DNA from: a virus
Strand: one strand, 5' to 3'
Virus record (IMG/VR): IMGVR_UViG_3300032177_000054
Coordinates: 1-29,154 of that record
Length of the DNA stretch: 29,154 nt
How positions within the stretch are numbered: the stretch's first letter is position 1; every line of letters starts with the position of its first letter. The position numbers and the translations under genes were made by a program. Below are positions 6,781-28,712 of the stretch, in pieces. Below the pieces are notes generated by a model. It did not search any database, was not told the DNA's origin, and was given only the letters and a program-made list of their open reading frames with translations.

Positions 6781-6784
6781 CAAA

Positions 6785-7648
6785 ATGAAAAAGAAATTAC
6801 TGGTTACCGGCGGGAACGGGTTCATTGGTTCGCACTACGTGGACCTAGTAAAAGACAAATATGATGTTACGGTTTATGATCTCCCAGAAAACGACATTTT
6901 AGAATACGAAAAACTATGCCTATACATTAGCCGATGTGATATTGTTGTGCACTTTGCCGCGATTGCCGACCTATACGAAACAGCCAAGGACTACGAAAAA
7001 AACTTTAACGTAAATGTTACCGCAACTACTTGTATCGGCCGACTATGCCAAAGGATGAACAAAAAGCTCGTATATATTTCCACTTGCTGTGCATACGGAA
7101 ATAGCATGGACAAGGTCGAGAAAGAATTTTATACCAATCCCATGACAGACGAGCCATACGCCTGTAGCAAAGTCGCAGCCGAGTACATGCTTAGAGGTAT
7201 ACATGATCTTAAATACGCAATACTCAGGATAGGGACCGCTTATGGACCACGACAAAGGGAGACGCTTTTTACATATCGCGCTATTGACTATATCAAAAAA
7301 GGTAAAACAATCACAGTACATGGTGATGGCAAGCAAGACAGAAACCTTATTTATATTGCTGATCTCGTTGAAGGTATTAAGCTGGCTACTGACAAAATAA
7401 GCAGCATACAAGGCGAGATTATAAATCTATGCGGGAAGGAGCGAATATCGGCACTTGATACGATAGCCCACGCTGAACGGGTAACAGGGATTAAGGCTAA
7501 AGTTAAGCATGGGAAAGACCGTCAAGGCCAGATACGCCACGAAAACATATCAATTAAAAAAGCAAAAGAATTGCTAGGATGGGAGCCTAAAGCATCATTT
7601 AAAAAAGGCATGGACTTATCTCACAAAAATGATGAGAGGTTTAATTGA
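6785..7648 (+). CDS. NAD-dependent epimerase/dehydratase (extended SDR)
   Basis: This 287-aa protein has the Rossmann glycine motif TGGNGFIG (8-15), FAAIADL after the fourth strand, YISTCCAYG with the catalytic Ser/Thr, and the active-site Y-x3-K at Y125/K129 (YACSKVAAEY). The later RIGTAYGPRQ and GDGKQDRNLIYIADL stretches are typical of UDP-glucose 4-epimerase/dTDP-glucose dehydratase relatives. It probably epimerises or oxidises a nucleotide sugar. I chose ATG 6785, 4 nt after the previous stop, because the upstream part of the open frame lies inside the preceding gene. At 287 aa it is slightly shorter than usual (about 310-340). Confidence 0.9.
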   Translation: MKKKLLVTGGNGFIGSHYVDLVKDKYDVTVYDLPENDILEYEKLCLYISRCDIVVHFAAIADLYETAKDYEKNFNVNVTATTCIGRLCQRMNKKLVYISTCCAYGNSMDKVEKEFYTNPMTDEPYACSKVAAEYMLRGIHDLKYAILRIGTAYGPRQRETLFTYRAIDYIKKGKTITVHGDGKQDRNLIYIADLVEGIKLATDKISSIQGEIINLCGKERISALDTIAHAERVTGIKAKVKHGKDRQGQIRHENISIKKAKELLGWEPKASFKKGMDLSHKNDERFN

Positions 7649-7652
7649 TAAT

Positions 7653-7931
7653 ATGAAATATAATATCTTAATAGCGTTTTATCTATCAACATTTATTGCA
7701 CTGTTTGCGTTCGTTGGCTGTGAACTAAGCGAGTACAAAGAAAAGACTGGCGACGCTTATGCAAGCCGATACTATCGCTATGTAATACGCACAGAGATTA
7801 CGGTATATGAGTGCGACAATGTCTACGTGTCATCACAGTCAGAAAATAGTTTGTACTGTGAATGTTATCGCGATGATGGCACAAAAATCATTGTCAAGGG
7901 CAGCCACGCTATAGAGAGATATAACAGATAA
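7653..7931 (+). CDS. putative lipoprotein
   Basis: This 92-aa protein begins MKYNILIAFYLSTFIALFA, a signal sequence ending in a lipobox-like AFVGC, so Cys would be lipidated at about residue 23. The mature part is small, polar, with three further cysteines (YECDN, YCECYRD), beta-rich, and could sit on an envelope surface. I prefer ATG 7653, which follows GAGG at 7634-7637, over an in-frame ATG at 7629 that overlaps the epimerase. Small phage lipoproteins often block superinfection by binding receptors; that is inference here. Confidence 0.6.
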   Translation: MKYNILIAFYLSTFIALFAFVGCELSEYKEKTGDAYASRYYRYVIRTEITVYECDNVYVSSQSENSLYCECYRDDGTKIIVKGSHAIERYNR

Positions 7932-8236
7932 TGCAGACTTTATTTGCTTGCACACAAGAGGATTTTTTAAAACAGATTTATAGGATATCGTCCCAGAATT
8001 TAGTAAAACTGCTATATGAGATATACGAGCTGAAGCACGACAGAGGGCAGTTTTGGGATGAAAGCACAATGATGGATATTGAGCGAAAAGAAACAAAGAT
8101 AAATGCAGAGCTAATTCGCAGAGGGTATCTTGACAAAAAGGGATACGAAGAGTACTTTAGAATGATGAGAAAGCTAGGGAATGGTAAAAAGAAAGTGTTT
8201 ACGCATGGCGTTCCTGTTATAGGTAAAACAGAATGA
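7931..8236 (+). CDS. hypothetical helical protein in glycan cassette
   Basis: This 101-aa charged protein is mainly alpha-helical (DFLKQIYRISSQNLVKLLY, DESTMMDIERKETKINAELI) with a basic C-terminus ending GVPVIGKTE. No signal peptide, membrane segment or known motif was found. It starts at a TAATG overlap with the lipoprotein gene and ends in an ATGA overlap with the aldolase gene, so it is co-translated with them. It may be a small partner of one of these proteins; function unknown. Confidence 0.6.
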   Translation: MQTLFACTQEDFLKQIYRISSQNLVKLLYEIYELKHDRGQFWDESTMMDIERKETKINAELIRRGYLDKKGYEEYFRMMRKLGNGKKKVFTHGVPVIGKTE

Positions 8237-8937
8237 TAATAGCAGGTGACTGTTTATATACTGACTATCTTGATGAAGACAGAATAATACATAACGCCGA
8301 AGAATTAAAAGGCGTTGTTGATTATTTTAGATGCAAGATTTTTGGTGGCGGCACTAGGCCAGATAGATATATTGCAGGAATAGGAATAAATGGGATTGAA
8401 ACGCTATCATATATCGACAAAGAAATTATCCCATGCGGAACAGAGATACAAACATTATCTCAATACAAAATGTGTGATACATTATCTTATCACTGGATAG
8501 GCGCAAGGAATAGTCAAAACTACGGTTTTTTAAATGAGATATCATGCAGTAAAAAAGACGTTATGATTAAGCGTGGAGCCTCAATAACTATAGACGAGAC
8601 CATTGGATTATTTGATATTATGAAGCATATCAACAACAAAGAAGTGTATATTATAGAGCGTGGGATAAATACTTTTGATAGACTTGACGACTCGCGCTGG
8701 TCACCTGACCTTAAGGGAGTTATACGCATTAAGCACGAACGGCCAGATATATTTGATAGACTTATTATAGACTGCTCTCATAGCGTAGGACGCAAAGAAT
8801 ATGTAGCAGATACATACAAAGCGTTCAAGGCTATTGGCATAAAGCATTTTATGTTTGAGTGCACGATAGATGGATTCAGCAAGACTGATTATAGGCACAT
8901 GTTGAGCGCTAAAGAATTAAAGGAGTTACTGAAATGA
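8233..8937 (+). CDS. DAHP-synthase-like PEP aldolase with altered acceptor site
   Basis: This 234-aa protein follows the class I DAHP synthase (AroG/AroF type) barrel: IIAGDC at 2-7, WIGARNSQN (88-96), VMIKRG (110-115), YIIERGINTF (139-148), IIDCSHSVGRK (178-188), FMFECTID (206-213). The metal ligands are present (C7, H183, E209, D219), as are residues that hold PEP in the family (A91-R92, K113, R143, H183). However, the K-P-R-[ST] motif that binds erythrose 4-phosphate is replaced by GGGTRPD (38-44), GPCS is GDCL, and ERGIRTF is ERGINTF. It probably condenses PEP, or a close analogue, with a different aldehyde to make a ulosonic acid. There is no ACT or chorismate-mutase regulatory domain. 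An inactive homologue is the alternative. Confidence 0.8.
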   Translation: MIIAGDCLYTDYLDEDRIIHNAEELKGVVDYFRCKIFGGGTRPDRYIAGIGINGIETLSYIDKEIIPCGTEIQTLSQYKMCDTLSYHWIGARNSQNYGFLNEISCSKKDVMIKRGASITIDETIGLFDIMKHINNKEVYIIERGINTFDRLDDSRWSPDLKGVIRIKHERPDIFDRLIIDCSHSVGRKEYVADTYKAFKAIGIKHFMFECTIDGFSKTDYRHMLSAKELKELLK

Positions 8938-10238
8938 TTAGACTAGAAAATTGCCCGATTTGTGACACTGACGACTGGAAGAAGTTAGACTATCTCAGGG
9001 ACCTTGAAAGGTGGTACGACAATGACTACAGGGAAGAGGGCGAGCAGGTAGGGTTTAAAATATGCAAACATTGCGGTTTTGTAACGTATGACTACGTAGA
9101 AGTAGATAGGCTTCAAAAGTTGTATACGCAACTTAGACCGATGGTTCGGGCTGAAAATGTTGTCACGCAGCGCAGAAAGAATTTATATCACAACGAGATG
9201 ATATTTAACAAACTTGACTCACATTTTATGGATCGCAGAAAAAATAATTTGAGATGCCTCGACGTGGGATGTGCAACGGGAGAATTTCTGGACCTGTTAA
9301 AGTCATATAATATTTTCAACGAATACTATGGTACGGAATGGTCAAAGGGATTTGTCGGATATGCCAAGAACGAATTTGGATTTAAAATTACAGAAGAAAT
9401 AGATACATCTATCAAATACGACTTTATATCATACTATCACGTACTAGAGCATATCCAAAGCCCAGACAAAGAACTAGCGAAGATCAGAAACATTTTGAAT
9501 GACGACGGATTGCTATACATTGCAGTACCAACATGGTTTGTTGATATCGAAGAGCCGTCTGGTATGTCTTGCTTGGACTTTGAAGAGTATTTCCACCTTA
9601 ATCACGTTAATGTATTTAGTGAGATGTCTTTTTTAAATTTAATGCATAAATGCGGATTCGAAATAATCAAAACAGATAAAAAAATGTATGGGTATGCAGT
9701 TCTATGCAAAAAGACCGATGCAACATATAATGTTGTGATTGAATCATACGAAGAGAAAGTGTCGATGCTCGAGATAATCAAAACGGCAATGGACTTTGCC
9801 ATAAAGAATGACTTTGTTAATGCTATAAAAACATTCCCTAAATATCCTGAAGCGTATTGTTATCTAAGCGTTAATAAGGAAAACCAGAAAAGCCTTAAGG
9901 TTCAAGAGCAGTTGCTCGAAGGAGGCCTAAAGCACAGTCCGCTGAACAAAAAATTAAAAATCCAATTGGCTAAACTATATATACAGTGGGACGAAAATAC
10001 CGGAGACAATCGGTTTTATTCCAACAATATTAAAAAATCAGAACGGCTATGGAACGAATTGATGAAAGATTGCATTGCACTAGAGGAGCCACAGTACTAC
10101 CTAGGCATAATAAATGGCAACTATAAGGGCGAATACAAAAAAGCGATTGAGTGTTTTAAAGACGTTATGGAGGCGAATCCATTAAGATATGGCGAGATAT
10201 TAAACTTAATAGGGTACTATTCCAAGTTTTTGTCTTGA
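8934..10238 (+). CDS. zinc-ribbon SAM methyltransferase with TPR-like tail
   Basis: This is a 434-aa protein in three parts. Residues 1-50 form a zinc ribbon (C7-x2-C10, C44-x2-C47) of the kind preceding sugar C-methyltransferases (Methyltransf_13 type). Residues about 100-255 are a class I SAM methyltransferase: motif I LDVGCATGEF (109 onward), YYHVLEH (around H169-H173), and LLYIAVPTWF. The classical C-terminal Methyltransf_14 domain is not evident. Instead, residues about 270-434 are helical and TPR-like (EPQYYLGIINGNYKGEYKKAIECFKDVMEANP), perhaps for protein or glycan-complex binding. It probably methylates a nucleotide sugar or glycan. Its TGA overlaps the next TTGACA promoter. Confidence 0.85.
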   Translation: MIRLENCPICDTDDWKKLDYLRDLERWYDNDYREEGEQVGFKICKHCGFVTYDYVEVDRLQKLYTQLRPMVRAENVVTQRRKNLYHNEMIFNKLDSHFMDRRKNNLRCLDVGCATGEFLDLLKSYNIFNEYYGTEWSKGFVGYAKNEFGFKITEEIDTSIKYDFISYYHVLEHIQSPDKELAKIRNILNDDGLLYIAVPTWFVDIEEPSGMSCLDFEEYFHLNHVNVFSEMSFLNLMHKCGFEIIKTDKKMYGYAVLCKKTDATYNVVIESYEEKVSMLEIIKTAMDFAIKNDFVNAIKTFPKYPEAYCYLSVNKENQKSLKVQEQLLEGGLKHSPLNKKLKIQLAKLYIQWDENTGDNRFYSNNIKKSERLWNELMKDCIALEEPQYYLGIINGNYKGEYKKAIECFKDVMEANPLRYGEILNLIGYYSKFLS

Positions 10239-10313: not shown

Positions 10314-12632
10314 TTGAGACTAGGAAGTTTAGAACTAAAAAGATACAAAGCTCCTATTGTTGAATCAATGCCCGCTAGGCAAGGGGCTGAAACTTCTTAC
10401 GCTGACTCGACTTATTATGATAAGTATTCGTTAAAACCATATAATCCCGACTCGCTCTATCAAAAAAACTCTGGGTATGCAATACACGACCAGATGAGAG
10501 AGGATGACCAGATATCATCTGTGCTTGGGCTAAAGAAACTTATCACACTTAATGCTGACTATGATATCGAATGCGAGGATGATGATGTACGCAACTTTCT
10601 ATTTGATTGTTTCGATAAATATATTGATGGAACATTTAGGTCAAAGCTATACGAGATACTGTCGTGTATGGATTATGGCTTTAGCATCACAGAAAAAATA
10701 GCGTCAGTAATAGAAACAAAAGACGGGAACAGGATTGTATTTAACAAACTAAAGACACGCGCCCCGCACACGTTCGAAATACACACAGATGACTTTGGCA
10801 ATACTACCGAGATAATGCAGCATACCGGCAAAAAAGGCGACATATCACTAGACCCAAAAAAATTTATACTCTATAGCTATAATTCTGAATTTGATAATCC
10901 TTACGGAAAGACACTTTTTAACAAAGGTGTTTATCGCGCTTGGTGGTCAAAGGATGCTATTATTAAATTCTGGAATATGTACCTTGAACGATTTGGAATG
11001 CCGCTAACGGTAGGCACGATACCTAAGTCAGCCTCCACAGAGGACAAGGATAGATTTAAAACAGCCTTAGGATCAATACAATCGCGTACCGCACTCACTG
11101 TCCCTGAAGGATTTCTAGTAGACCTTAAAAAGGCTAGTGAAACGCCTGGGGAATTCGAAAAAGCAATTGATAAATATAATACGATGATGGCACGCTCAAT
11201 GCTTGTACCTGACCTACTTGGGTTCAGTGGGAGCGAGACTGGCGGCGGGTCGTTTGCTCTAGGTAAAGAGCAGTTTAACATCTTTTATACAGGCATTGAA
11301 TACGATAGACAGAATTTAGCAAATATCATCCAGCGAGAATTAGTTAATCCACTTGTATCGTGGAATTTTGGATCTAAGGTTGAGGCTTACTTTTGTTGGA
11401 AACAGGTTGATAGCGACAAGAAGCTAAACGACATGAAGCTTTGGATTGAAGCCGTTAAGACTGGCAAAGTGCCTGTTAAAGGCGATCACGTAAATTGGTT
11501 CCTGTCTGGAGTGGGCGCACCGGAAATAGATCAAGACGAACTAGACATTATCGACGATCAAAAAGACGCTATGAGAGAAAATCTTTCCGGTGTAGTTGGT
11601 GCAAATAATGCACAGGCTCAACCTGAAGGCGAAGCGCAAGACAAAACACAAGAAACGATAGAAGAAAACAAAGAACAAATACAAGAAAAAGAAGAGCCAG
11701 AGAAATCAGATGATAGCCAAGCCGAAAAGCAAATGTGCGAATGTGGGCATGAACATACCTATCAAGAGATAAACGACATAAGCCTTGACTCGCTTTCTCA
11801 ATACGAAAAGAAAGCTGATTTCTCAAAAATCATAAAAGAAACCGACAATATTGAAGCTAAATACAAAGAGCTTCTAGGAAACATATTTAAGACATCGATA
11901 AATGCCCTAGTTGACGAGATAAGAACCAGAAAAATAATAGAGAAAAAAAGAATCGACTCAATTAATAAGCTCAACCTTAAATATCAACCACAGATAAAAA
12001 AGATAGTTAAGGATATGATGAGCGAGTCCGTTGTGTTGGGCGAGACTACCGCGCCGATACCAAATAAGTACAAAAAGTACGACCTGGTTGATGTTACGTC
12101 ACAGCTTAACGACGATGATATAGCAACGTGGATTGATAACTACGCTTTTTATGTATCTGACATGGAGGCAGGATTTATACTAGGAAAAGTAAAGCCTATA
12201 CTTATGTCGGCGATACAGAAGGGCTTGGGAACGGCCGAAACAGTTAAGCTAATCAACGACGCTCTCATAGGATACGATATTAAAACTACAGAGACCGGCG
12301 GTAGTGCTCGCATAGATATTATAGTTAGGACAAACGTAAACAAGGCCTACAATCAGGCACTCGTAAAAGACTTTGCTCGAATACAAGAATACATACAAGC
12401 TTATCAGATCAGCGCGATAATGGATAAACGGACAAGCGCAACCTGCCAAGCATTAAATCACAAAATAATTAAAGCCAACCAACTTAGTTATTATACTCCG
12501 CCCTTCCACTTTCGATGCCGAACAACGCTAGTGCCAATATTCATAGACGAGGAACCGGTTGACTGGAATAGTCCCGAAGCGCAGCTTCCCGCGACAGATC
12601 AAGCAGAAGGAGGGTTTTTAGAGCTTAAATGA
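10314..12632 (+). CDS. portal protein (DUF935, Mu gp29-like) fused to MuF head-morphogenesis domain
   Basis: This 772-aa fusion has a DUF935 portal at residues 1 to about 420 (MREDDQISSVLGLKKLI early; PDLLGFSGSETGGGSFALGKEQF and LVNPLVSWNFG late). A low-complexity Glu/Gln/Lys linker (about 430-480) follows, with a Cys/His knot CECGHEH at C475-H481. The MuF (gp30/SPP1 gp7-like) domain ends the protein: RTNVNKAYNQAL (672 onward), DKRTSATCQALN (704 onward), FHFRCRTTLVP (731 onward). In Mu these are separate proteins. The portal is the DNA channel at the head vertex, and MuF is a minor head protein. The start is TTG with no clear ribosome site and an in-frame stop just upstream; the first ATG is codon 19. 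Confidence 0.9.
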   Translation: MRLGSLELKRYKAPIVESMPARQGAETSYADSTYYDKYSLKPYNPDSLYQKNSGYAIHDQMREDDQISSVLGLKKLITLNADYDIECEDDDVRNFLFDCFDKYIDGTFRSKLYEILSCMDYGFSITEKIASVIETKDGNRIVFNKLKTRAPHTFEIHTDDFGNTTEIMQHTGKKGDISLDPKKFILYSYNSEFDNPYGKTLFNKGVYRAWWSKDAIIKFWNMYLERFGMPLTVGTIPKSASTEDKDRFKTALGSIQSRTALTVPEGFLVDLKKASETPGEFEKAIDKYNTMMARSMLVPDLLGFSGSETGGGSFALGKEQFNIFYTGIEYDRQNLANIIQRELVNPLVSWNFGSKVEAYFCWKQVDSDKKLNDMKLWIEAVKTGKVPVKGDHVNWFLSGVGAPEIDQDELDIIDDQKDAMRENLSGVVGANNAQAQPEGEAQDKTQETIEENKEQIQEKEEPEKSDDSQAEKQMCECGHEHTYQEINDISLDSLSQYEKKADFSKIIKETDNIEAKYKELLGNIFKTSINALVDEIRTRKIIEKKRIDSINKLNLKYQPQIKKIVKDMMSESVVLGETTAPIPNKYKKYDLVDVTSQLNDDDIATWIDNYAFYVSDMEAGFILGKVKPILMSAIQKGLGTAETVKLINDALIGYDIKTTETGGSARIDIIVRTNVNKAYNQALVKDFARIQEYIQAYQISAIMDKRTSATCQALNHKIIKANQLSYYTPPFHFRCRTTLVPIFIDEEPVDWNSPEAQLPATDQAEGGFLELK

Positions 12633-13323: not shown

Positions 13324-14460
13324 ATGCCAATGCCCAAGCCCAAACCAATGGAATCTCAAAAAGACTTTATGTCTCGGTTTATGAGTGACGAGACAATGCT
13401 GGCCGAATACCCAGACGATAAACAAAGGATGGCAATAGCAGAGCAGGCCTGGTCAGATAGTCAAGAGTCGCTAAAAAACAATGAAGAGTTGGCCTACGAA
13501 ACTGTAGATGTTGACGGCGTAGAGATATTTAAATCCGGAACATGGAACGGAGACAAATACACCGACGCCGACTTGGATGAAATGGTTTATGCTCATAATG
13601 AAATAGGCGCAAAGCTAAAGCCTTATGTAAAACTAGGACACGATAACGGCCAAGCATTATTACAAAAAGACGGCTATCCAAGCGCCGGATGGATTAAGAA
13701 GCTATATAGAACAGGCAATACTTTATTTGCAGACCTAGGAAGTGTACCTAAAAAAATTAAATCGCTTATTGATTCCAAAGCCTATGGGCGCATAAGCCCA
13801 GAAATTTATTGGAATGCAGAGATAGGCGGTAAGAAATATAAGCGCGCCGTCAAGGCAATGGCACTGCTTGGTGGAAACACGCCAGCAGTGACCGAACTAA
13901 ATGATTTCATAAACCTATATACTGAAAATAACAATGTAAACGCTGAATTTATAAAACTATGTAGTTCGTATGAAGGAGATACCATAATGGATGAAAAACA
14001 ATATGCAGATAAAATTAGTGAGCTTGAAACACAAGTCAAAGAATATTCTGCAAAGAACACTGACCTTCAACTTCAACTAGAAAAGATTGAAATTGAAAAG
14101 CTCTATTCAGAAGCCAATTCAATTCTTGATGCAGCCGAAAAGGAAGGCAAAATAGTACCTGCTCAACGGTCAGCACTCATGGCACTGGCTACCGATAAAG
14201 GATTAAAAAGTTACTCTAGCGACGGCAAGAGCGTTGAAGGTTCAGGACTTGACTTTGTTAAATCGGTTATTGAAAATTCGCCGAAAGTTGTAGATTTTAG
14301 CGAAGCTTCAAAACAAAACGTACCAGAAAAATCTAAAAATTATTCTGCTATGGACGAGACAGAGAAGGGCGAAGAGCTTGATAAACGCGCCAAGGTTTAT
14401 TCAAAGGAAAACAATGTAACATATAAAGAAGCGCTGAAAATCGTTTCTATGGAGGTTTGA
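13324..14460 (+). CDS. Mu gpI-like head maturation protease with C-terminal scaffold
   Basis: This 378-aa protein starts at ATG 13324, which follows GAGG and the previous stop. The first about 45 residues (Pro-rich start, then DFMSRFMSDETMLAEYPDDKQRMAIAEQAW) form a short motif found at the head of many phage prohead proteases. Residues about 60-210 resemble phage I-like proteases (GTWNGDKYTDADLDEMVYAHN, PYVKLGHD, PSAGWIKKLY, YGRISPEIYWN, ALLGGNTPAV). Residues about 222-378 are a coiled-coil scaffold (KISELETQVKEYSAKNTDLQLQ). In Mu, gpI cuts scaffold and itself during head maturation. The scaffold portion is also made from an internal start. Confidence 0.85.
   Translation: MPMPKPKPMESQKDFMSRFMSDETMLAEYPDDKQRMAIAEQAWSDSQESLKNNEELAYETVDVDGVEIFKSGTWNGDKYTDADLDEMVYAHNEIGAKLKPYVKLGHDNGQALLQKDGYPSAGWIKKLYRTGNTLFADLGSVPKKIKSLIDSKAYGRISPEIYWNAEIGGKKYKRAVKAMALLGGNTPAVTELNDFINLYTENNNVNAEFIKLCSSYEGDTIMDEKQYADKISELETQVKEYSAKNTDLQLQLEKIEIEKLYSEANSILDAAEKEGKIVPAQRSALMALATDKGLKSYSSDGKSVEGSGLDFVKSVIENSPKVVDFSEASKQNVPEKSKNYSAMDETEKGEELDKRAKVYSKENNVTYKEALKIVSMEV
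13987..14460 (+). CDS. nested scaffold protein (Mu gpZ-like) from internal start
   Basis: An in-frame ATG at 13987 lies 8 nt after a strong ribosome binding site, GAAGGAG (13972-13978). It would yield a 157-aa protein identical to the coiled-coil C-terminus of the protease. This is the same arrangement as I/Z in Mu and C/Nu3 in lambda, where the free scaffold is needed in excess over protease. The sequence shows the site directly; production of the shorter protein is inferred. Confidence 0.75.
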   Translation: MDEKQYADKISELETQVKEYSAKNTDLQLQLEKIEIEKLYSEANSILDAAEKEGKIVPAQRSALMALATDKGLKSYSSDGKSVEGSGLDFVKSVIENSPKVVDFSEASKQNVPEKSKNYSAMDETEKGEELDKRAKVYSKENNVTYKEALKIVSMEV

Positions 14461-14880: not shown

Positions 14881-15816
14881 ATGGCATACGGTGGAAATTT
14901 ACATATTAATAAAGCTTTGACTAATGTATCAATTCAATACAGGAACAACGAATTTATTGGATCGATGATTATGAAGGACATCCCAGTGGCGAAAGAATCT
15001 GATGTATATTATATATATGCAAAAGATATGCGTATGGCCGAGACACTTAGAGCTAACAAATCGGCATCAAAACAAATTACGTGGGGCGTATCGACAACTT
15101 CTTACAGTCTCGACGAACATGCAATAAGCGATGTTGTTACAGACCGCGATCGAAAAAACGCGGACTCTCCAATTAACATGGACATTGACGCCACGGAATT
15201 TTTGACAGACAAAATTCTCATGCGTCAAGAAAAAGACTTTGCAGACCTGCTGTTTACAACAGGTACATGGTCTAACAATACCACTCTCACAACCGCGACC
15301 GCGTGGAAGTACAACACCACTACCAGCGCACCAATTCAGAATGTTTTGAGCGCTACTGGTCTTGTAATTAAACAATCAGGGAAAAGACCCAATACTCTTA
15401 TTTTGAATTTTGAAGGGTTTGCAGCACTTAAAGAAAATACAAACGTATACTCTCGTATTCAGTACGTAGAAAAAGCGATTATTACAGAACAATTGCTTGC
15501 AAGTATTTTTGATGTTCAGAATGTTTATGTAGGCTTAGGAGTTTATGATGCAGGCATGGAAGGTGGCACAGAGTCTCTCACGTCGATATGGGGCCCTGAT
15601 GCACTGCTTGCATATTTCGATCCAAGCGCAACTGGACTTAAAAAAGTCACCGCTGGCTTTAATCTTAGGATGTCAGACTCTGGAAATCCTTATAAGGTTA
15701 AAAAATGGCGTGAAGAAAAGCTTTCAGGTGATGTAATTGAAGTATCTACAATGTTCAAGCCGGTAGCGGTAGCGACATTGTGCGGTTATTTTTTCAAAAC
15801 TGTAGCATTAGCATAA
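14881..15816 (+). CDS. major capsid protein
   Basis: This 311-aa HK97-fold-like major head protein has a strong ribosome binding site (AAGGAGG, then ATG 14881), consistent with high expression. It has an N-terminal SIQYRNNEFIGSMIMKDIPVAKES segment, a long helix with many charged residues (DATEFLTDKILMRQEKDFADLLF), and a beta-rich C-terminus with GPDALLAYFDPS and TLCGYFFKTVALA. It follows protease, scaffold and decoration genes in the order used by Mu- and lambda-like phages. No cleavable long delta domain is evident, fitting a separate scaffold. Confidence 0.88.
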   Translation: MAYGGNLHINKALTNVSIQYRNNEFIGSMIMKDIPVAKESDVYYIYAKDMRMAETLRANKSASKQITWGVSTTSYSLDEHAISDVVTDRDRKNADSPINMDIDATEFLTDKILMRQEKDFADLLFTTGTWSNNTTLTTATAWKYNTTTSAPIQNVLSATGLVIKQSGKRPNTLILNFEGFAALKENTNVYSRIQYVEKAIITEQLLASIFDVQNVYVGLGVYDAGMEGGTESLTSIWGPDALLAYFDPSATGLKKVTAGFNLRMSDSGNPYKVKKWREEKLSGDVIEVSTMFKPVAVATLCGYFFKTVALA

Positions 15817-15844
15817 TTTAGTATAATACTGATTGAGGTAAAAA

Positions 15845-16039
15845 ATGGATCAAGTTAAAGTTAATTCGAACGAAAATCTCTCGCAAGAAAACGAGAAACA
15901 ATACTCGAAAGATTCTATTGTTTCGCAATCCGAAGAAAAAATATTCATAGGTAAAAAAACTAAGGTTTTTACTGTGACTAAATTTAAAAACGGTGTTGTT
16001 AAACGTAGACTTAAAGAGATTTATAAGGGCAAAAAGTAA
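15845..16039 (+). CDS. small hydrophilic protein of unknown function
   Basis: This 64-aa protein is highly charged and Ser/Asn/Lys-rich at the N-terminus with a more ordered C-terminal half (IFIGKKTKVFTVTKFKNGVVKRRLKEIYKGKK). The GAGG site (attgaggtaaaaaATG) supports it. Short genes with this appearance commonly sit between major capsid and connector genes in phages and are sometimes head-tail joining or Rho-like N-domains; neither is shown here. Confidence 0.55.
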   Translation: MDQVKVNSNENLSQENEKQYSKDSIVSQSEEKIFIGKKTKVFTVTKFKNGVVKRRLKEIYKGKK

Positions 16040-16042
16040 ATT

Positions 16043-16534
16043 ATGGGATACGCCACTATAACGAGCATTCAAACTATCCTTCCGAAATTACCACAAACTA
16101 CGACGGCGACCGGTTACTCGACGGCTGCTGCTGTAATTTCGAAACACATTGATAGAGCGAGTGCTGTTATAAATGGCTATATTTCAAAACGATATAGCTT
16201 GCCGTTTAGTAGCACGATACCGTTGCTTGTAAGTATTTGCGAGGATATTGTAAGTTACTATACGGCAAGGTCGTTTTTTCAACAGGACAATTTCAATAGA
16301 CTAGACTCGCTAGCAGAACTAAAAACCGATGCTATGCTTACCCTCAAGGACATTATGGACGGCAACATTGACTTGATTGATAGCACCGGATCACTGGTGG
16401 ATGGCATTGATCTAGGCGAAGAGTCAAATGTTGATAGTACTACATACGATGAGGCAACATTTTTTGAGGTTGACGACTCCCTGGATTGGGACTTTGACGT
16501 TGTGAGAAAAGACAGGGTGAGTGACAAACGATGA
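16043..16534 (+). CDS. head-tail connector/adaptor (DUF1320, Mu gp36-like)
   Basis: This 163-aa protein shows the DUF1320 pattern: an early helix ITSIQTILPKL, a central ISKHIDRASAVINGYISKRYSLPF signature, then ICEDIVSYYTARSFF and TDAMLTLKDI helices. Such proteins form the ring directly under the portal. The C-terminal 50 residues are an acidic extension (GIDLGEESNVD...DDSLDWDFD) beyond the usual domain. Its stop overlaps the next gene by 4 nt (ATGA). Confidence 0.85.
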   Translation: MGYATITSIQTILPKLPQTTTATGYSTAAAVISKHIDRASAVINGYISKRYSLPFSSTIPLLVSICEDIVSYYTARSFFQQDNFNRLDSLAELKTDAMLTLKDIMDGNIDLIDSTGSLVDGIDLGEESNVDSTTYDEATFFEVDDSLDWDFDVVRKDRVSDKR

Positions 16535-16947
16535 TATCTATCCGCACAGTTGGACTAACACAAGTCCAAGAAGACTTTGAGGCGATGGCGAAACGCTGTC
16601 AAAATCCTACAACAATGTTGGAGGTTATCGCACAGAAAGGACGAAAAAACGTATTGCAGCATTTTGAAAAAGAAATGGGAGACACTGGACCATGGAAGCC
16701 ATTAAGCGCAAGTAGGGCAAAACACAAAAAGGGCGGAAAAGGGAAAATATTACAAGACACTGGAAGATTACGACTATCGATACTCGGACGTACTAAAACA
16801 AATGAAGCCCACGTTTATACTAATGTTGAGTATGCAAAGTTTCACGAATTCGGTATAGGCGTACCAGAGAGAAGATTTATGTGGTTAGACGCAACAACAA
16901 TAAGGAATATTATTTTAATGTTAAAAAACTTTTTGGTGAACGGTTAA
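16531..16947 (+). CDS. virion morphogenesis / tail completion protein (Mu gpG-like)
   Basis: This 138-aa protein has the virion-morphogenesis family features: an N-terminal helix with NPTTMLEVIAQKGRKNVLQHFE, the W-x-PLS motif (GPWKPLSASRAKHKK), a glycine/lysine loop and ILQDTGRLRLSI, then EYAKFHEFG and a RRFMWLD end. Members join heads to tails. It is encoded between the connector and the tail terminator, the normal place. Confidence 0.88.
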   Translation: MISIRTVGLTQVQEDFEAMAKRCQNPTTMLEVIAQKGRKNVLQHFEKEMGDTGPWKPLSASRAKHKKGGKGKILQDTGRLRLSILGRTKTNEAHVYTNVEYAKFHEFGIGVPERRFMWLDATTIRNIILMLKNFLVNG

Positions 16948-16948
16948 C

Positions 16949-17437
16949 ATGGCTATAGATGTATATGCAATACGCGGGTATATAGTTAATCTCTTAACCG
17001 AGAACAATACTACCACATCTAGTTACGATATAAGTAGCGGGCTAACAGAACGTGTAAAAGAAATAATTGGAGACTATGCAAAAAGCCCACAACTTAATAT
17101 CAATTACCCCGCAATATACGTTGAGACTAAAAACAAAAAAGAAGAGCATTTTGTAATGGGCGGCGGCTCCAATAAGCGTAACATCACTATGCAATTTGAC
17201 ATAGTTGCCGTATGCCAGTATGGCTTTGGGCAATTCGATGGCCGGCTACTCAGTGACAAGGAAATGATTACTTTAGCACAAAATATTGAAAGTCTGTTCA
17301 GAAACAAGATTACATTATCAAATACGGTTGACATGTGCCTTGTAACTAATACAGACTATGACGTAGAACAGGTAGGAGAGTCCACATATAATAGTGCTGC
17401 GAGGATTTCTCTGGAAGTTAAAAAATTTAGTAGTTAG
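16949..17437 (+). CDS. putative tail terminator protein
   Basis: This 162-aa protein starts 2 nt after the preceding stop. It has an alpha/beta layout: an N-terminal helix (AIRGYIVNLLTENN), a strand bearing YPAIYVETK, a central ITMQFDIVAVCQY strand, helix EMITLAQNIESLFRNKITL, and a final strand pair ending SLEVKKF. This order is typical of tail terminators that close the tube at its head-proximal end. No sequence motif is absolutely diagnostic, so the call leans on fold pattern and position. Confidence 0.7.
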   Translation: MAIDVYAIRGYIVNLLTENNTTTSSYDISSGLTERVKEIIGDYAKSPQLNINYPAIYVETKNKKEEHFVMGGGSNKRNITMQFDIVAVCQYGFGQFDGRLLSDKEMITLAQNIESLFRNKITLSNTVDMCLVTNTDYDVEQVGESTYNSAARISLEVKKFSS

Positions 17438-17444
17438 AGGTTTT

Positions 17445-18470
17445 ATGCTTACTGAAAAAGAAGTACACGATCAGTCTGTTAGGGCGTTCGAGCATTGGAA
17501 AACGATTTGGGATGAGAATACCAAGGCCAATGGCGAGTTATTAAAAAAGATTAAAACAAGCCAAAAACATTTATTAAACCTAGGCTTTGGCAAAAAACTT
17601 TTATGTGTTGCTTGTGGTGCAAGCCTAGAAACAAAAATTGATATTGTTAAAAAATACAAAACTGACGCGCTTGATATTGCTTGCGTAGATAAAGCACTTC
17701 CAATACTTATCGAACATGGGCTACACCCTAAATATGTATTTCTTGCCGACGCCGGAGTGTCCTACGAAAAGTACTGTGAAAAATATATAGGCCAGACAGA
17801 AGACATGGTTCTCATTTCTAATGTTCAGGCCAACCCTAAATGGTCGCACAACTGGAAGGGTAAAGTTGTTTTTTATGTAAATAAAGATAACATCGGAAGC
17901 GAGGCGATATATTCACCCATGTCTGGATGTGTAGAAATGATACCGGCATCAAGTAACGTCGGGAATAGCGTTATTGTGTTTAGTACACAAATACTAGGAT
18001 ATGACGAGTACCTTATGCTAGGGTATGACTTTGGATTTGGAATAGATACTCATTACTACGCATTCGAGGATAACGATAAAAGATATTGGATGAAACATGC
18101 ACAGCTTATAGATTATAGCGGAAATATTTGTTACTCATCGCAAAACTTAATATTTAGCAGCAAGTGGTTGGATGATTTTAATAGCACGATGGTTAAATCA
18201 AAAGGAATTAAGCTGCATAACTGCTCAGGATGCGGAGTGTCTGGAGTCCATCCGGCTAACCTAGAAAAGAAAATAAAGAATCTTAAATTTAGAAAATTAA
18301 CCGACGATGAAAAACTTAAGATACTAAATTCACGTATAGAAACAATATCTTTGACTGCACAGGATGGCGCTCAGGCCTTACAGCAAGCTCTTGAAAGCCA
18401 TAATGTCATAGGTATTAAATTGGACTACGTACCACATGAGGTTAACACATGGCTAAACTCAGGTATATAG
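17445..18470 (+). CDS. Maf/DUF115-family glycosyltransferase-like protein
   Basis: This 341-aa protein starts at ATG 17445 after AGAGG (17436-17440). It carries the DUF115 (MAF_flag10/MptE-like) core: a nucleotide-binding-type loop VACGASLE (55-62), ALPILIEHGLHPKYVFLADAG, LISNVQANP, and the strongly conserved SSNVGNSVIVFSTQILGYDEYLMLGYDFGF (from about 169). Maf proteins in flagellated bacteria transfer nonulosonic acids such as pseudaminic acid onto flagellin; other relatives are hydroxymethylpterin kinases. Position in the tail operon, between terminator and tube, points to glycosylation of a tail protein. It partners in this reading with the aldolase and cytidylyltransferase of the 4592-10238 cassette. 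Confidence 0.85.
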   Translation: MLTEKEVHDQSVRAFEHWKTIWDENTKANGELLKKIKTSQKHLLNLGFGKKLLCVACGASLETKIDIVKKYKTDALDIACVDKALPILIEHGLHPKYVFLADAGVSYEKYCEKYIGQTEDMVLISNVQANPKWSHNWKGKVVFYVNKDNIGSEAIYSPMSGCVEMIPASSNVGNSVIVFSTQILGYDEYLMLGYDFGFGIDTHYYAFEDNDKRYWMKHAQLIDYSGNICYSSQNLIFSSKWLDDFNSTMVKSKGIKLHNCSGCGVSGVHPANLEKKIKNLKFRKLTDDEKLKILNSRIETISLTAQDGAQALQQALESHNVIGIKLDYVPHEVNTWLNSGI

Positions 18471-18637
18471 ATAAAAGGGTAATATACGTGACAAATCTAA
18501 AAAATTACGCGGGAGTATCATTGCCTAAGGAAAATCCCGATGAGAATATATTGATAGTTACTGAAACAGAGGCAAAACATTTGCTGCGACAAAAAAACGG
18601 TAATAACCCAACATGGGAAATTATAGAGGAGAAATAA
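18449..18637 (+). CDS. small tail-operon protein of unknown function
   Basis: This 62-aa protein overlaps the DUF115 gene by 22 nt, with GAGG (18438-18441) upstream of the ATG. It is a compact alpha/beta sequence (RVIYVTNLKNYAGVSLP, then ILIVTETEAKHLLRQK, then TWEIIEE), reminiscent of short proteins found between the terminator and tube or sheath genes of Mu-like phages. No function is assigned; a structural or assembly role is suggested by place only. Confidence 0.6.
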   Translation: MAKLRYIDKRVIYVTNLKNYAGVSLPKENPDENILIVTETEAKHLLRQKNGNNPTWEIIEEK

Positions 18638-18638
18638 A

Positions 18639-19661
18639 ATGACTATAGGAAACAATACCCCATTTTTTGGATTCGACAGTGCGGTTGGCGTTGCAAAGGA
18701 AACTACTTTCGGTACTTTTGTAACGGCCACGACTTTTATAGAATTTAACAGTGAAGGCTTTAAACAAGAGCGCGATTCTAAAACTCTTGAATCAATCAAT
18801 GCTTCACGCGATCCCAAAAAGCGAGTAACATTTAACGAGAATATTTCAGGATCAATTGAGGCTGAGCTTAATCTTGCAAGTGACGGTATCATCAATATAC
18901 TTAAACAGGGCATGGGCGGGACATGTTCAAGCGTAGTTACAAGCGCGGGAGTTAGCTACACGCATACTCTTTATTCTGGAGACATGGAAAACAATAAGCC
19001 AACTTCAACCGGATCGGACATGAAGTCGCTTAGTTTTCAGGTGCGTAAAGGTAGTACGCATGTATGGTGTTACGCGGGCATGAGGGCTAACACTTTATCT
19101 TTTAAAGCGGAATCCGGCGGTCCTGTAGTTTTTAGTTCTGAATTGATCGGGCAAACATGTAGTATAACAAGCACAATACCAGCGATTAGCGTTACAGATG
19201 TTAACCCATGTACTTTTGTTGGCGTAACCGTACAAACCGGAGCAACCACGACATCACTGGCTACAGAATATTTTAAGAGCTTTGAGCTGACCATCAACAA
19301 TAACCTAGATGGTGAGCAAAGGGTGTTGGGATCGCGAAACGTAGTGTGTTTGCCACCGAAAAGACGTGAAACAAAGCTAAAATTTACACAGATATTTGAT
19401 ACGATAACGGCTTATAATAGATTTCTAGCCGAAACAATTACCGCCATTAAAATATCTATTACGGGGCCGACTATAGCAAGCTCCAGCCTTCCACATCAGC
19501 TTGACATTACACTACCTAGGTGTTATTTTAAATCTAATATGCCGACAGTTGGGGGACCAGATCCAATTATGTTGGAAATGGAATGTGACGTGCTTTATGA
19601 CTCTGCTTTGGGTAGTGCTGTAAAAATGGAAGTAATAAACGGCACCGCTGCATACGCATAA
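18639..19661 (+). CDS. tail tube protein
   Basis: This 340-aa protein is beta-rich with a starting segment typical of phage tube proteins: NTPFFGFDSAVGVAKETTFGTF...FIEFNSEGFKQERDSKTLESINASRDP. Later segments include GSIEAELNLASDGI and FKSFELTINNNLDGEQRVLGSRN. The layout fits a duplicated tube domain (Phage_tube_2 group), which polymerises into a hollow tube guided by the tape measure. The absence of any sheath gene indicates a non-contractile tail. GAGG precedes the ATG. This protein is a candidate target for the upstream Maf-like enzyme. Confidence 0.8.
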   Translation: MTIGNNTPFFGFDSAVGVAKETTFGTFVTATTFIEFNSEGFKQERDSKTLESINASRDPKKRVTFNENISGSIEAELNLASDGIINILKQGMGGTCSSVVTSAGVSYTHTLYSGDMENNKPTSTGSDMKSLSFQVRKGSTHVWCYAGMRANTLSFKAESGGPVVFSSELIGQTCSITSTIPAISVTDVNPCTFVGVTVQTGATTTSLATEYFKSFELTINNNLDGEQRVLGSRNVVCLPPKRRETKLKFTQIFDTITAYNRFLAETITAIKISITGPTIASSSLPHQLDITLPRCYFKSNMPTVGGPDPIMLEMECDVLYDSALGSAVKMEVINGTAAYA

Positions 19662-19683
19662 AATTTAAAGGAGAATATACTGA

Positions 19684-20055
19684 ATGAAATATCTAAACTT
19701 GGAGAAAATCATTGGTGACGACAAGTCGCTAAACCTTGGTGGCAAGAAACTTATTATACCTGGAGAAATCCCAGTAAAAATAATGTTTAGGCTTATTCGG
19801 GCCTCTCAGGATATCGCAGAGGATTATGGAAATATCGACAAAATCAATGTATCGTATGAGGTTATTAGAGACATTCTTGTATTAAAAAATAAGGACGTAA
19901 ATCCTAACTGGGTATACGAACAGCTACAAGATTTGACCACAAAACAATACGCTGCATTGGTTAATTATATACATGGCAACGATGAAAATGCAGACGAAGA
20001 GGAGAAGCCAGAATTAAAAAAGACGCAAGGCGACGTGATCCTCGTCGCCATGTAA
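19684..20055 (+). CDS. tail assembly chaperone (gpG-like, unshifted product)
   Basis: This 123-aa protein comes between tube and tape measure, the defining place for tail chaperones. It has a beta-hairpin N-terminus and helices IMFRLIRASQDIAEDYG, YEVIRDILVLKNK, WVYEQLQDLTTKQYAALVNYI, then an acidic tail ENADEEEKPELKK. AAGGAG lies upstream of the ATG. Its last codons contain a slippery heptamer followed by a hairpin, and a minority of ribosomes should shift into the -1 frame to make a longer protein. Confidence 0.85.
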   Translation: MKYLNLEKIIGDDKSLNLGGKKLIIPGEIPVKIMFRLIRASQDIAEDYGNIDKINVSYEVIRDILVLKNKDVNPNWVYEQLQDLTTKQYAALVNYIHGNDENADEEEKPELKKTQGDVILVAM

Positions 20056-20228
20056 AAATAGTTAGCATAGATGCAATACAGTCAGTGGCAGAATGCTCTA
20101 GGTTTTATAGCATTTCCCCATCGGAGGTATTAAATCTTTCATGGGATTTTTTTATAGGGCTTATTGAGTATAAGAACGAAGTTGTAGAAAAGGAAGAAAA
20201 GGAAAGGGCGAAAGCAAGACGAGGGTAG
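19684..20228 (+). CDS. tail assembly chaperone -1 frameshift product (gpGT-like)
   Basis: After reading residues 1-113, ribosomes slipping -1 on A_AAA_AAG (20016-20022) continue from 20022 to TAG at 20226-20228, adding 68 residues for a 181-aa product. The added part begins DARRRDPRRH, contains IDAIQSVAECSRFYSISPSEVLNLSWDFF-type helices and ends in a Lys/Glu/Arg-rich helix. The extension has no start codon of its own and fills the otherwise empty gap before the tape measure gene. In lambda, the G and GT proteins recruit tube subunits to the tape measure, and their ratio is set by slippage. Confidence 0.85.
20016..20049 (+). promoter_or_regulatory. -1 programmed frameshift site with stimulatory hairpin
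   Basis: The heptamer A-AAA-AAG (20016-20022) is in the right phase with the zero frame (codons TTA AAA AAG). Six nucleotides later a perfect 7-bp GC-rich stem, GGCGACG (20029-20035) with CGTCGCC (20043-20049), encloses a 7-nt loop. This is the heptamer class used by dnaX of E. coli, with the normal spacer for a downstream stimulator. Confidence 0.85.
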
Positions 20229-20231
20229 ACT

Positions 20232-22331
20232 ATGGCAAGCAGTAACGAAGAAATAAAGATTATAATAAAGGCGGCCGCAGACCAAGCCATCAATGACATT
20301 AACAAGCTTAATGCCGGACTGGCTAATACAAGTAAGGGTAGCGAGGATGCGTCCAAAAAAGCTACTGGCCTTGGTAGTGCTTTCGGTGCTATTGCAAAAC
20401 TTGGTATTGCTGCCATGTTTATTGATCTTGCAAAGTCAGCCGCCATGAATGCCGGAGAAATTGAAAAAAATACTGTGGCTTTCACTGTTCTTCTTGGATC
20501 AGCCGAAAAAGCTCAAAAGATGATGAGCGATTTAAAACAGTTCGGACTTGAAACTCCATTCGAGCTTCCTGGTATAGTAGAAGCCTCGAAAAAACTACTG
20601 GGCTTTGGAATATCTGCCGAGAGCATGATCCCAACATTGCGTAGACTTGGTGACGCTGCAATGGGAAATCAAGAAGTATTTGAGCGCATAAGCGACGCTT
20701 ACGGTAAAAGTGCAACTAAGGGAAAGGTAACTTTTGAGGAGCTAAATAGATTCCTAGAGGCTGGTGTGCCAATACTTGGCCAGTTAGCCCAGAACTACGG
20801 CGTAACAACTGGCCAGATGTCCAAGATGATTGAAGACGGGAAAGTGGGATTTTCTGCACTCGACAAAGCCTTAACCAGCCTAACAACTGGAAACGGTCAA
20901 TTTGCTGGCATGATGGAAAAACAAAGTCACACGTTTTTAGGAATTATGAGCAATGCTAAAGATGCGATAGGCGTACTTCTTTCGGCAATGGGTGAGCAAA
21001 TGTTGCCTGGATTAAAGGTCTTAGGCGAGGCTTTTATTGGTGCGTCAAAAGATGGCGGATCGCTTATGAAAATGATGACAAAAATGGGAGAAGGTCTTGG
21101 ATTTCTCGCGTCGGGTTTTGCTGGTTTTTTCGCACTTATAAGCGAAGGCAACAACATGTTGAAATCGCTTATGATGGCCGATCAAGTAAACCAGTCGGCT
21201 GAAGCAACAAACGAAGCCACGAAGCAACTTAAAGATTATGTAACAGCAACAACCGGAGCACAGCAAGGTACCAAACAATTTGCGGATGCAATGAAAGAAT
21301 TAAAAAATAATGGCGACGCAACATTTAAGGAATTGTATGACTCCGCTATGAAAAGCGGAAAAGGGATGCAAGATAATGTTGATAAAATGAATGAATTCGC
21401 TAATCAAACAAAAAAAATACAAGCCGTTTCCGATTCTTTAAAACAATTTGAGGCAGACTATACGACAACAGCAGTACAAGAGTCGCAAGTCCGCACTCAA
21501 GCGAAACTACAAGACGCCACTACCGCAGCTGACGGACAGAAGGCAATAATGCAAGGTTTGAAAGACATACAAAAAGAAGATTATGACGCGGCGGTGGCAA
21601 CTGAAAACAATGCGTATGCACAAAAAATGCAATTTGCATTAACTCACACGGAGTGGCTAAAACAAAATAATATTACTGTAGAAATGATAAAAGCACAGCA
21701 TGAAGAGAAGCTTCTCAAGCTTGCTGATGATAGAAGAAAAAAAGAACAGTCAGCAGAAACCGCACTACAAAAAAACTTGACCACTCTTGTACAGGACAAC
21801 CTAAAAATACGCACTCAGCAGTTTATGGAATGGACCTCTTTCATGCTATCAAATCTTGACCAGAGCAACAAAGAGCAGTTCGCTCTATATAAAGGGTTTG
21901 CCATTGTTATGGCTACAATCGATACATATAAAGCTGCCAATGCGGCATTTAGTTCTCTTGCCGGAATACCTTATGTAGGATACGTTCTAGGTCTCGCGGC
22001 GGCGGCCTCTTGCGTAGCACTTGGTCTCGCAAATGTTTCGAAAATCGCGTCAAGCAGTCCTAGAAAAGCAGCGACTGGTGCTCTTGTAAAAGGCTCTCAA
22101 CAGGGAAGCACTTTGACCGTAGGTGAAAACAATCGATCAGAATTAATAGTACCGTTTGAAAATCCAGAGGTCATGGGAAAAATGACAGGGGGTGGTGGGG
22201 TAAACCTATACATAACAAACCTCTACGCTACAGAAGATCTTCCCAAAAAATTAGTACAGGAAATTGACAAAGAGCTTTATAAATTAAAACAGGACAGAGG
22301 ATCAGTATTCGCATCCTCCATGGGGTTTTAA
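20232..22331 (+). CDS. tail tape measure protein
   Basis: This 699-aa protein has the tape measure start pattern (EIKIIIKAAADQAINDINKLNAGL), a conserved domain with FTVLLGSAEKAQKMMSDLKQFG, TPFELPGIVEASKKLLGFGI and YGKSATKGKVTFEELNRFLE, hydrophobic patches near 290-310, coiled coils (about 360-580) and a C-terminal hydrophobic segment (YVGYVLGLAAAASCVALGLA). By the usual 0.15 nm per residue it predicts a tail near 105 nm. It follows the frameshift chaperone by 3 nt and is the largest tail gene. Confidence 0.95.
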   Translation: MASSNEEIKIIIKAAADQAINDINKLNAGLANTSKGSEDASKKATGLGSAFGAIAKLGIAAMFIDLAKSAAMNAGEIEKNTVAFTVLLGSAEKAQKMMSDLKQFGLETPFELPGIVEASKKLLGFGISAESMIPTLRRLGDAAMGNQEVFERISDAYGKSATKGKVTFEELNRFLEAGVPILGQLAQNYGVTTGQMSKMIEDGKVGFSALDKALTSLTTGNGQFAGMMEKQSHTFLGIMSNAKDAIGVLLSAMGEQMLPGLKVLGEAFIGASKDGGSLMKMMTKMGEGLGFLASGFAGFFALISEGNNMLKSLMMADQVNQSAEATNEATKQLKDYVTATTGAQQGTKQFADAMKELKNNGDATFKELYDSAMKSGKGMQDNVDKMNEFANQTKKIQAVSDSLKQFEADYTTTAVQESQVRTQAKLQDATTAADGQKAIMQGLKDIQKEDYDAAVATENNAYAQKMQFALTHTEWLKQNNITVEMIKAQHEEKLLKLADDRRKKEQSAETALQKNLTTLVQDNLKIRTQQFMEWTSFMLSNLDQSNKEQFALYKGFAIVMATIDTYKAANAAFSSLAGIPYVGYVLGLAAAASCVALGLANVSKIASSSPRKAATGALVKGSQQGSTLTVGENNRSELIVPFENPEVMGKMTGGGGVNLYITNLYATEDLPKKLVQEIDKELYKLKQDRGSVFASSMGF

Positions 22332-27823: not shown

Positions 27824-28135
27824 GTGGCAGACTCGTCTCAACATATTAATAACACTACAATTATTTTTGCTGTTATCAGTGCTCTCATTAGTACTATTTC
27901 GATTTTATTAGCCTGGATTTTCAAAAAAATTCTGCAAGATGTCGAGAAAAAAATTGATGATCTTGATGAAAAATTTGAAAAACATATTGAGCGTATTGAC
28001 CTTAAGCTTGACAAGCAATGTGAAAAATGCGTAAACTCAATTTTAGTACGCTCAGAATTGGTACATTTAGTAGAGCAAATTAATGATTTAAAAAGCGATA
28101 TACGAGAGGTTAAAGATGGAAAGCATGAACGCTGA
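27824..28135 (+). CDS. membrane-anchored coiled-coil protein, holin- or XhlA-like
   Basis: This 103-aa protein starts at GTG 27824, 6 nt after AGAGGTG (27811-27817); an ATG at 27785 lies inside the fibre gene. A transmembrane segment (NTTIIFAVISALISTISILLAWIF, about residues 9-32) is followed by a coiled coil (DVEKKIDDLDEKFEKHIERIDLK) and a CxxC pair (CEKC). One membrane span with a long coil is seen in XhlA-type haemolysin/holin helpers. It starts the lysis cassette. Confidence 0.6.
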   Translation: MADSSQHINNTTIIFAVISALISTISILLAWIFKKILQDVEKKIDDLDEKFEKHIERIDLKLDKQCEKCVNSILVRSELVHLVEQINDLKSDIREVKDGKHER

Positions 28136-28712
28136 AGACATTAAGGGCATGTACGACGGCTTTGGTGGAGAGTGGCAAGACATTAACATCTTTGGCATAA
28201 GGGTCAATGAAAATCCTAATAGCGATGAATTTAACGATTTTATCGGTGTCGTGTGCGGAGACATATACAAGATTTACAAAGGAACCACTGATCCTGGAAT
28301 ATATTACACAAAGGTTGCGCCTATAACATACGGCGGAGTTAGGGGAGCTGCTCACTTGATTGATGGATTTCACAGAGACGCTTGGCAGGTTGGAGTACAT
28401 TGCCCCGGCACTGGATTTGCCCACGAAGCATTGATCCAAACCGGCGCGCCGGTAACGATATGGAGAGATACTAATCAAGATTTTGAGGAATCTAGCGAGC
28501 CTATTCAAAGCGGGTGGTTCGGCATCAACATACACAGGTCGGCTCCATACGGCGACGCCTCGACAATAGCCAATTACTCTGCCGGATGCGTGGTGTTTAA
28601 AAACGGGAACGACTTCAACGAATTTATGCAAATAGTAAAAACTAGCGAGAGATACAAGAATAATCACGGCTGTAAGTTTAGTTTATTTATAATTAACAAA
28701 TCTTGGTTTTAG
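28116..28712 (+). CDS. putative endolysin (YkuD/L,D-transpeptidase-like signature)
   Basis: This 198-aa protein overlaps the preceding gene by 20 nt. A H140 in WFGINIHRS followed by SAGC (155-158) matches the His...S-x-G-C catalytic signature of the L,D-transpeptidase/YkuD fold, where the Cys attacks peptidoglycan stem peptides. There is no signal peptide, so a holin would release it. Position among holin-like genes supports an endolysin role, but peptidoglycan cleavage rather than transfer is inferred from context only. A muramidase or amidase motif was not found. Confidence 0.55.
   Translation: MESMNAEDIKGMYDGFGGEWQDINIFGIRVNENPNSDEFNDFIGVVCGDIYKIYKGTTDPGIYYTKVAPITYGGVRGAAHLIDGFHRDAWQVGVHCPGTGFAHEALIQTGAPVTIWRDTNQDFEESSEPIQSGWFGINIHRSAPYGDASTIANYSAGCVVFKNGNDFNEFMQIVKTSERYKNNHGCKFSLFIINKSWF

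Follow-up and report, generated by a model that had tools for sequence, protein, structure and literature searches.

A Maf-like gene beside the tail tube gene, together with a sugar cassette, suggests that uncultured bacterial viruses glycosylate their own tails

Introduction

Maf genes adjoin the gene for flagellin, a helical filament protein. The enzyme from Clostridium botulinum (CbMaf) is described as taking CMP-Neu5Ac and CMP-Kdo and as modifying serine or threonine residues, and the same paper compares Maf's C-terminal domain with flagellin and with the flagellin chaperone (PMC11339370). Among phages, glycosyltransferases modify capsids and tail tubes, according to a paper that cites Freeman 2023 (PMC10877033), and mycobacteriophage capsids are reported to bear glycans (PMC11256854). 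Searches of the open-access literature turned up no description of a phage enzyme of the DUF115 type. Here we analyse such a gene in a 29,154-nucleotide stretch of viral DNA (IMG/VR record IMGVR_UViG_3300032177_000054; hereafter the window). We propose, with a probability of roughly 0.62, that the gene encodes a compact Maf-like transferase, which takes a CMP-ulosonic acid made by the phage and attaches the sugar to a protein of the virion, the tail tube being the likeliest target.

Results

A PF01973 gene in the tail module

The gene is an ATG-to-TAG open reading frame with coordinates of exactly 17445-18470, and it lies among the following features.

16949-17437, plus strand: tail terminator, the upstream neighbour (PHROG 20428, E=1.2e-5; in this position in all 57 loci)
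17445-18470, plus strand: Maf-like (PF01973/DUF115) putative ulosonic-acid glycosyltransferase, 341 aa (from Pfam, relatives and fold model)
18449-18637, plus strand: small tail gene, 62 aa, overlapping the enzyme gene by 22 nt
18639-19661, plus strand: tail tube protein, 340 aa, first candidate acceptor (Phage_tube_2, E=1.7e-33; 22.4% Ser+Thr)

The longest mechanical reading frame for the enzyme gene opens further upstream, at GTG 17394 (358 aa). We set the start at ATG 17445 because the 12 relatives in alignment A2 (see below) start there, with N-termini at this ATG or at most two residues from it. The stop codon of the upstream gene occupies 17435-17437, with the enzyme ATG 7 nt beyond it, and an AGAGG sequence at 17436-17440 lies 4 nt 5' of that ATG. 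Together with the 22 nt shared by the 3' end of the enzyme gene and the next reading frame, this agrees with the ribosome binding site and overlap claimed in an earlier, sequence-only reading of this DNA. Promoter-like and terminator-like sites in 15800-20300 were no more frequent than in shuffled sequences.

The sole Pfam match of the enzyme was PF01973 (DUF115/MptE-like; Maf_flag10/MptE-like), with E=5.2e-16 and a score of 59.3 bits (cut-off 34.6). All 48 diverse members of alignment A3, which are 29-54% identical to the window protein, match PF01973 individually (E<=0.001) and share 18 invariant columns, many of them polar and including D82, K83, D102, D148 and N171, indicating that the family match is not due to chance. 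The NCBIfam model for the flagellin modification protein PseD gave 35.8 bits, far under its curated cut-off of 670, and aligned to the enzyme over positions 228-469 of its 640 only. A search of PHROGs with the enzyme returned no match below E=0.07. Among relatives the length of the enzyme differs by tens of residues, chiefly toward the C-terminal side.

The enzyme family and its conserved place

Searches of viral and genome collections with single sequences (enzyme, capsid, terminase or tube) gave no match, and relatives of the enzyme were reached through alignments only. A tblastn search with the enzyme at E<=0.01 found nothing among 50,697 records of named phages and 72,556 of plasmids; three partial named-phage matches obtained at E<=10 had E values of 0.5 or worse and were taken as chance. 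An alignment of the portal (window and four named phages) led to the best 80 of 156 IMG/VR relatives; 13 records among the first 50 contain PF01973, and none of the remaining 30 does. The 13-member enzyme alignment A2 then gave 57 viral loci, of which 13 fall on contigs found before, and also matched three contigs from bacterial MAGs. Altogether, searches that set out from three proteins yielded 78 viral contig records with the enzyme family, near-copies being counted separately. In an independent assembly, a 47-kb contig of a Gastranaerophilales MAG carries the cassette described below, terminase, head genes, terminator, enzyme, small gene and tube. Other cellular matches to the phage enzyme profile, three in the Gastranaerophilales MAG and one each in three other genomes, lie in frames of 638-697 aa (Maf length) and scored 31.8-62.5 bits compared with 386.5; this search covered 146 genomes of one phylum, with archaea, the home of MptE, outside the sample.

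The order terminator-enzyme-tube was found in 56 of the 57 viral loci (near-identical copies included), L152 ending inside the gene; genes were called from local profiles of window genes built on the same loci, and positions were not used. With all searches pooled, the terminator lies upstream and the tube downstream in 76 of 78 records, the contig ending too early in the remaining two, confirming across the family the position between tail terminator and tube gene that had been read from the window. In a subset including L155, L161 and L162, a match to the small gene is absent and the genes for enzyme and tube themselves overlap. Of 19 portal-derived records in which terminator and tube are both present, 13 contain the enzyme and six lack it. 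In the enzyme-less L121, GBK1 and vB_BpsS-36, a gene sized like the 62-aa gene precedes the tube; L121 represents the cleanest empty site, with terminator, a 69-aa gene and tube, and nothing else between. The enzyme gene is not stray cargo.

Several other genes were seen in or near this module. In the enzyme-less relative L046, a DUF4915 protein (13511-14275) fills the slot between terminator and tube and is perhaps the product of another tail-modifying gene. L292 and L293 carry a stand-alone cytidylyltransferase with a divergent DUF115 gene, and no terminator or tube match was found in these 3.5-kb loci. Elsewhere in the window, a Mu-type portal (PF06074) and a MuF-like protein (PF04233) are encoded in one 772-aa frame at 10314-12632, a fusion also present in several relatives. 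The 198-aa protein encoded at 28116-28712 has no Pfam match and contains an H...SAGC stretch that we take to resemble L,D-transpeptidase-type enzymes, making this a possible lysis gene.

Co-occurrence with a sugar cassette

The window cassette spans 4592-10238 and comprises the following genes.

4592-5470, plus strand: radical SAM/SPASM protein, CX3CX2C present
5434-6780, plus strand: cytidylyltransferase (CTP_transf_3) fused to a GT2 glycosyltransferase, from domain matches
6701-7648, plus strand: NAD-dependent epimerase/dehydratase (SDR), from a family match
7931-8236, plus strand: cassette protein of 101 aa with no assigned function; in L111 a homologue immediately follows the tube gene
8233-8937, plus strand: DAHP-synthase-family ulosonate synthase; KPRTSPY-type stretch altered, NeuB instead in some relatives
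8934-10238, plus strand: cassette methyltransferase, from a family match

The fusion of CTP_transf_3 to GT2 is conserved in distant relatives (25-45% identity); G006, G084 and G123 have split or single versions. Among contigs of at least 25 kb, CTP_transf_3 was present in 15 of 17 that carry the enzyme (window included; 14 of 16 without it) against none of ten enzyme-less portal relatives, with a Fisher p of 7.8e-6 (window included) that derives largely from one clade and is uncorrected for descent. Both misses, G009 and G102, are cut at or near the cassette: in G009, 241 nt separate the end of the contig from the start of the terminase match, and G102 stops just past the synthase. At any length, CTP_transf_3 was found in 16 of 50 enzyme-positive records, the misses being mostly short fragments, and in one of 25 enzyme-less portal relatives (G025). 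This record was set aside as uninformative, its contig ending at the portal.

The reverse search started from A5, an alignment of the fusion, and gave 65 loci, 36 of which were examined (26 new ones with both halves, three CTP-only and seven GT2-only); the 29 left out comprised 17 on contigs already found and 12 single-domain matches. The enzyme family was present in 21 of the 26 new two-half contigs and in 17 of the 18 that are at least 25 kb long, the exception being G298, whose fusion is distant (24% identical). It was also found in two of three CTP-only contigs, both times in divergent form, and in none of the seven GT2-only contigs. The terminator adjoins the enzyme gene in all 21 enzyme-positive fusion contigs and the tube does so in 20 of them, L305 ending first. 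Thus, the enzyme gene is accompanied by a cassette that would supply a CMP-activated ulosonic acid. The sequence-only reading had regarded the enzyme as separate from the glycan cassette, a view that does not hold functionally given co-occurrence in both search directions.

DAHP-synthase-family and NeuB enzymes all make 2-keto-3-deoxy acids. In 18 of 20 records a ulosonate synthase of either kind was found, with PF00793 over cut-off in 14 and NeuB in four, NeuB appearing only where PF00793 was not over cut-off; G084 and G123 had neither. NCBIfam models labelled seven of ten synthases as DAHP-synthase-like and three as NeuB, all below curated cut-offs. The KPRTSPY-type stretch of DAHP synthases binds the aldose phosphate. 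The window synthase retains counterparts of GARN, KRG, ERG and SH, and GGGTRPDR replaces the KPRTSPY-type stretch of solved DAHP synthases. A true shikimate DAHP synthase was considered and rejected on the altered substrate stretch, the NeuB exchange in relatives and the finding of no second shikimate enzyme among the scanned window proteins.

Cassettes vary in further ways. The weak matches of the protein encoded at 4592-5470 include spiro-SPASM (TIGR04321), with a weak match to the cytidylyltransferase domain too. The G124 cassette holds a KduI/IolB-type isomerase (L204 9765-10598) and a second cytidylyltransferase, contents that suggest a different sugar. In G007, genes for a GDSL lipase/acylhydrolase and an Imm5-like protein flank the radical SAM gene (L112 1776-2540 and 4476-5150).

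Predicted structure

An AlphaFold model of the enzyme using alignment A2 reached a pLDDT of 91.9 and a pTM of 0.88. Foldseek against the PDB returned, in this order, Maf 5mu5 (E 8.6e-12), an archaeal HPPK and human ST8SiaIII. In VIA-align, the model matched Maf 5mu5 with Z 23.1 over 247 residues (model 12-297; rmsd 3.1), archaeal HPPK 8sd5 with Z 17.1 over 204 residues (model 2-261), and CstII and ST8SiaIII, of GT42 and GT29, with Z 9-10. Profile searches matched the family to Maf 5mu5 at E=7e-6 and to 8sd5 at E=2e-5, the alignments with 8sd5 ending at chain residue 104. The top BFVD matches to the model were two viral models named 'MptE-like' (28-29% identity).

When aligned with three Maf-length MAG proteins, the phage proteins span the core and the conserved stretch that follows it, and have no N-terminal domain and little of the C-terminal one. 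The 341-aa enzyme thereby departs from the three-domain architecture of Maf (N-terminal Rossmann-like domain, C-terminal helical domain, about 640 aa). Of the Maf/DUF115 identity assigned earlier, the Maf-like fold is retained in the model and 'Maf' as a family name is not, with the N-terminal Maf domain missing and the C-terminal part short. With these domains absent or short, the enzyme most likely works like Maf rather than being a true Maf.

Discussion

The gene, its family, its predicted fold, its fixed place and its co-occurrence with the cassette are what we observed, and from them we infer the enzymatic activity, the donor class and the acceptor class. In our proposal, a compact single-core Maf-like glycosyltransferase with a sialyltransferase-like fold would act during late gene expression, transferring a CMP-activated 3-deoxy-2-ulosonic acid (nonulosonic- or Kdo-like) to serine or threonine residues of a virion protein before assembly. 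The donor would come from the phage cassette, where the synthase (8233-8937) would make the acid and the cytidylyltransferase portion of the fusion (5434-6780) would activate it. The SDR, the methyltransferase, the radical SAM protein and the GT2 domain may tailor or extend the donor sugar. The acceptor would most likely be the tail tube protein encoded beside the enzyme.

The weakest step is the choice of the tube as acceptor over the capsid or some other protein of the tail. An enzyme of the same class using the same donor might act mainly on the major capsid protein or the tail fibres, with tube adjacency being mere operon history. We regard this as unlikely, and it has several observations in its favour: the mirror-tree partial correlation with the enzyme was at least as high for the capsid (0.36) as for the tube (0.33), with gp36 at 0.32 and the terminator at 0.26 (38 loci and the window, after incomplete loci and near-copies were dropped); capsids of enzyme-positive phages are richer in Ser+Thr than those of negative ones (0.170, n=48, versus 0.147, n=36); and glycans are reported on mycobacteriophage capsids (PMC11256854). 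Against it stands the tube gene, which adjoins the enzyme gene in every covered locus and overlaps it in a subset. The mirror-tree result is not specific and hence was not counted as support for the tube. Ser+Thr content is also a weak pointer: the tube of the window, at 22.4%, is accompanied by other tail proteins that are also rich, the tube value of 0.214 in enzyme-positive phages (n=49) compares with 0.166 in just three negatives, and the enrichment extends to capsid and gp36. One more hint towards the tube comes from L111, where a homologue (37% identity) of the 101-aa protein is encoded at 1230-1493, immediately after the tube gene and not in the cassette.

Alternatively, cassette and enzyme could alter the host surface (flagellin, pili or capsule) against superinfection, the late position being incidental. 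Phage enzymes altering capsular pseudaminic acid have been reported in Acinetobacter (PMC12053666), but in two independent searches the present enzyme is permanently inside the tail module, and it lacks the N-terminal Maf domain and is short in the C-terminal part, which in Maf is described as flagellin- and chaperone-like (PMC11339370); we consider a host-surface role quite improbable. That same permanent place, along with a length that varies by tens of residues, mostly on the C-terminal side, would fit a catalytically dead Maf-domain derivative serving as a structural or assembly factor in the tail. The 18 invariant and often polar columns in 48 diverse members, and the linkage to the donor pathway, make this very improbable. 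Least weight goes to a pterin (6-hydroxymethylpterin) pyrophosphokinase, the activity indicated by Pfam and UniProt names. PF01973 does bear the MptE name, and 8sd5 ranks second by fold (Z 17.1) and has a profile match at E=2e-5; however, Maf fits better and over more residues, a Pfam scan of 30 window proteins found no folate or pterin family besides the PF01973 match itself, and CMP-sugar genes co-occur instead, so that we give this activity hardly any credence.

Under the favoured reading of ulosonic-acid transfer to a virion protein, the place beside the tube and the sugar genes suggest that uncultured bacterial viruses glycosylate their own tails. A fuller version, in which a siphovirus-like lineage makes its own CMP-ulosonic acid and a Maf-like enzyme, its gene joined to the tube gene, sugar-coats the tube, falls slightly short of even odds in our estimation. 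If true, phages would possess a second, chemically distinct route of virion glycosylation through CMP-ulosonic acids and Maf-like transfer, and the database label 'MptE-like pterin diphosphokinase' on such phage proteins would need correction. Small Maf-like enzymes with non-flagellin acceptors would also become available for study and glycoengineering. The role of acidic tail sugars (stability, receptor or antibody shielding, passage through slime) could be put to the test, since one small genome encodes the enzyme, the candidate acceptor and the enzymes for the donor.

Comparison with known systems places the enzyme nearest to Maf of Magnetospirillum (5MU5) and C. botulinum. Common to both are the PF01973 core, with the best fold match at Z 23.1, a genetic link with a CMP-ulosonic-acid pathway (here by co-occurrence of gene families), and a gene position beside that of a helical filament protein, in the phage the tail tube. 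By contrast, Maf has about 640 aa and resides in a flagellar locus, whereas the phage enzyme has 341 aa, resides in a tail operon, and has no N-terminal Maf domain and a short C-terminal part. Archaeal MptE, the 6-hydroxymethylpterin pyrophosphokinase (8SD5), shares the PF01973 core as the second fold match (Z 17.1) but the phage enzyme occurs in a CMP-sugar context, in a window without other pterin or folate genes, and its conserved stretch after the core aligns with Maf-length proteins. The GT42/GT29 sialyltransferases CstII and ST8SiaIII share the fold (Z about 9-10) and use CMP-sialic acid; their sequence identity to the phage enzyme is very low and their acceptors differ. In virion glycosylation of mycobacteriophages (Che8 and others), phage-encoded glycosyltransferases are reported to act on capsid and tail tube (Freeman 2023, as cited in PMC11256854 and PMC10877033). 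These belong to other transferase families, and we know of no Maf-like enzyme or ulosonic-acid cassette there. The parallel with flagellin glycosylation drawn in the sequence-only reading is supported by the Maf-like fold and the lasting place beside the tube gene, and we advance tentatively, as part of a reading of self-contained virion glycosylation, that such a coating is its viral counterpart. Phage virion glycosylation and flagellar Maf being already known, the Maf-like ulosonic-acid combination in a phage would be a variation on them.
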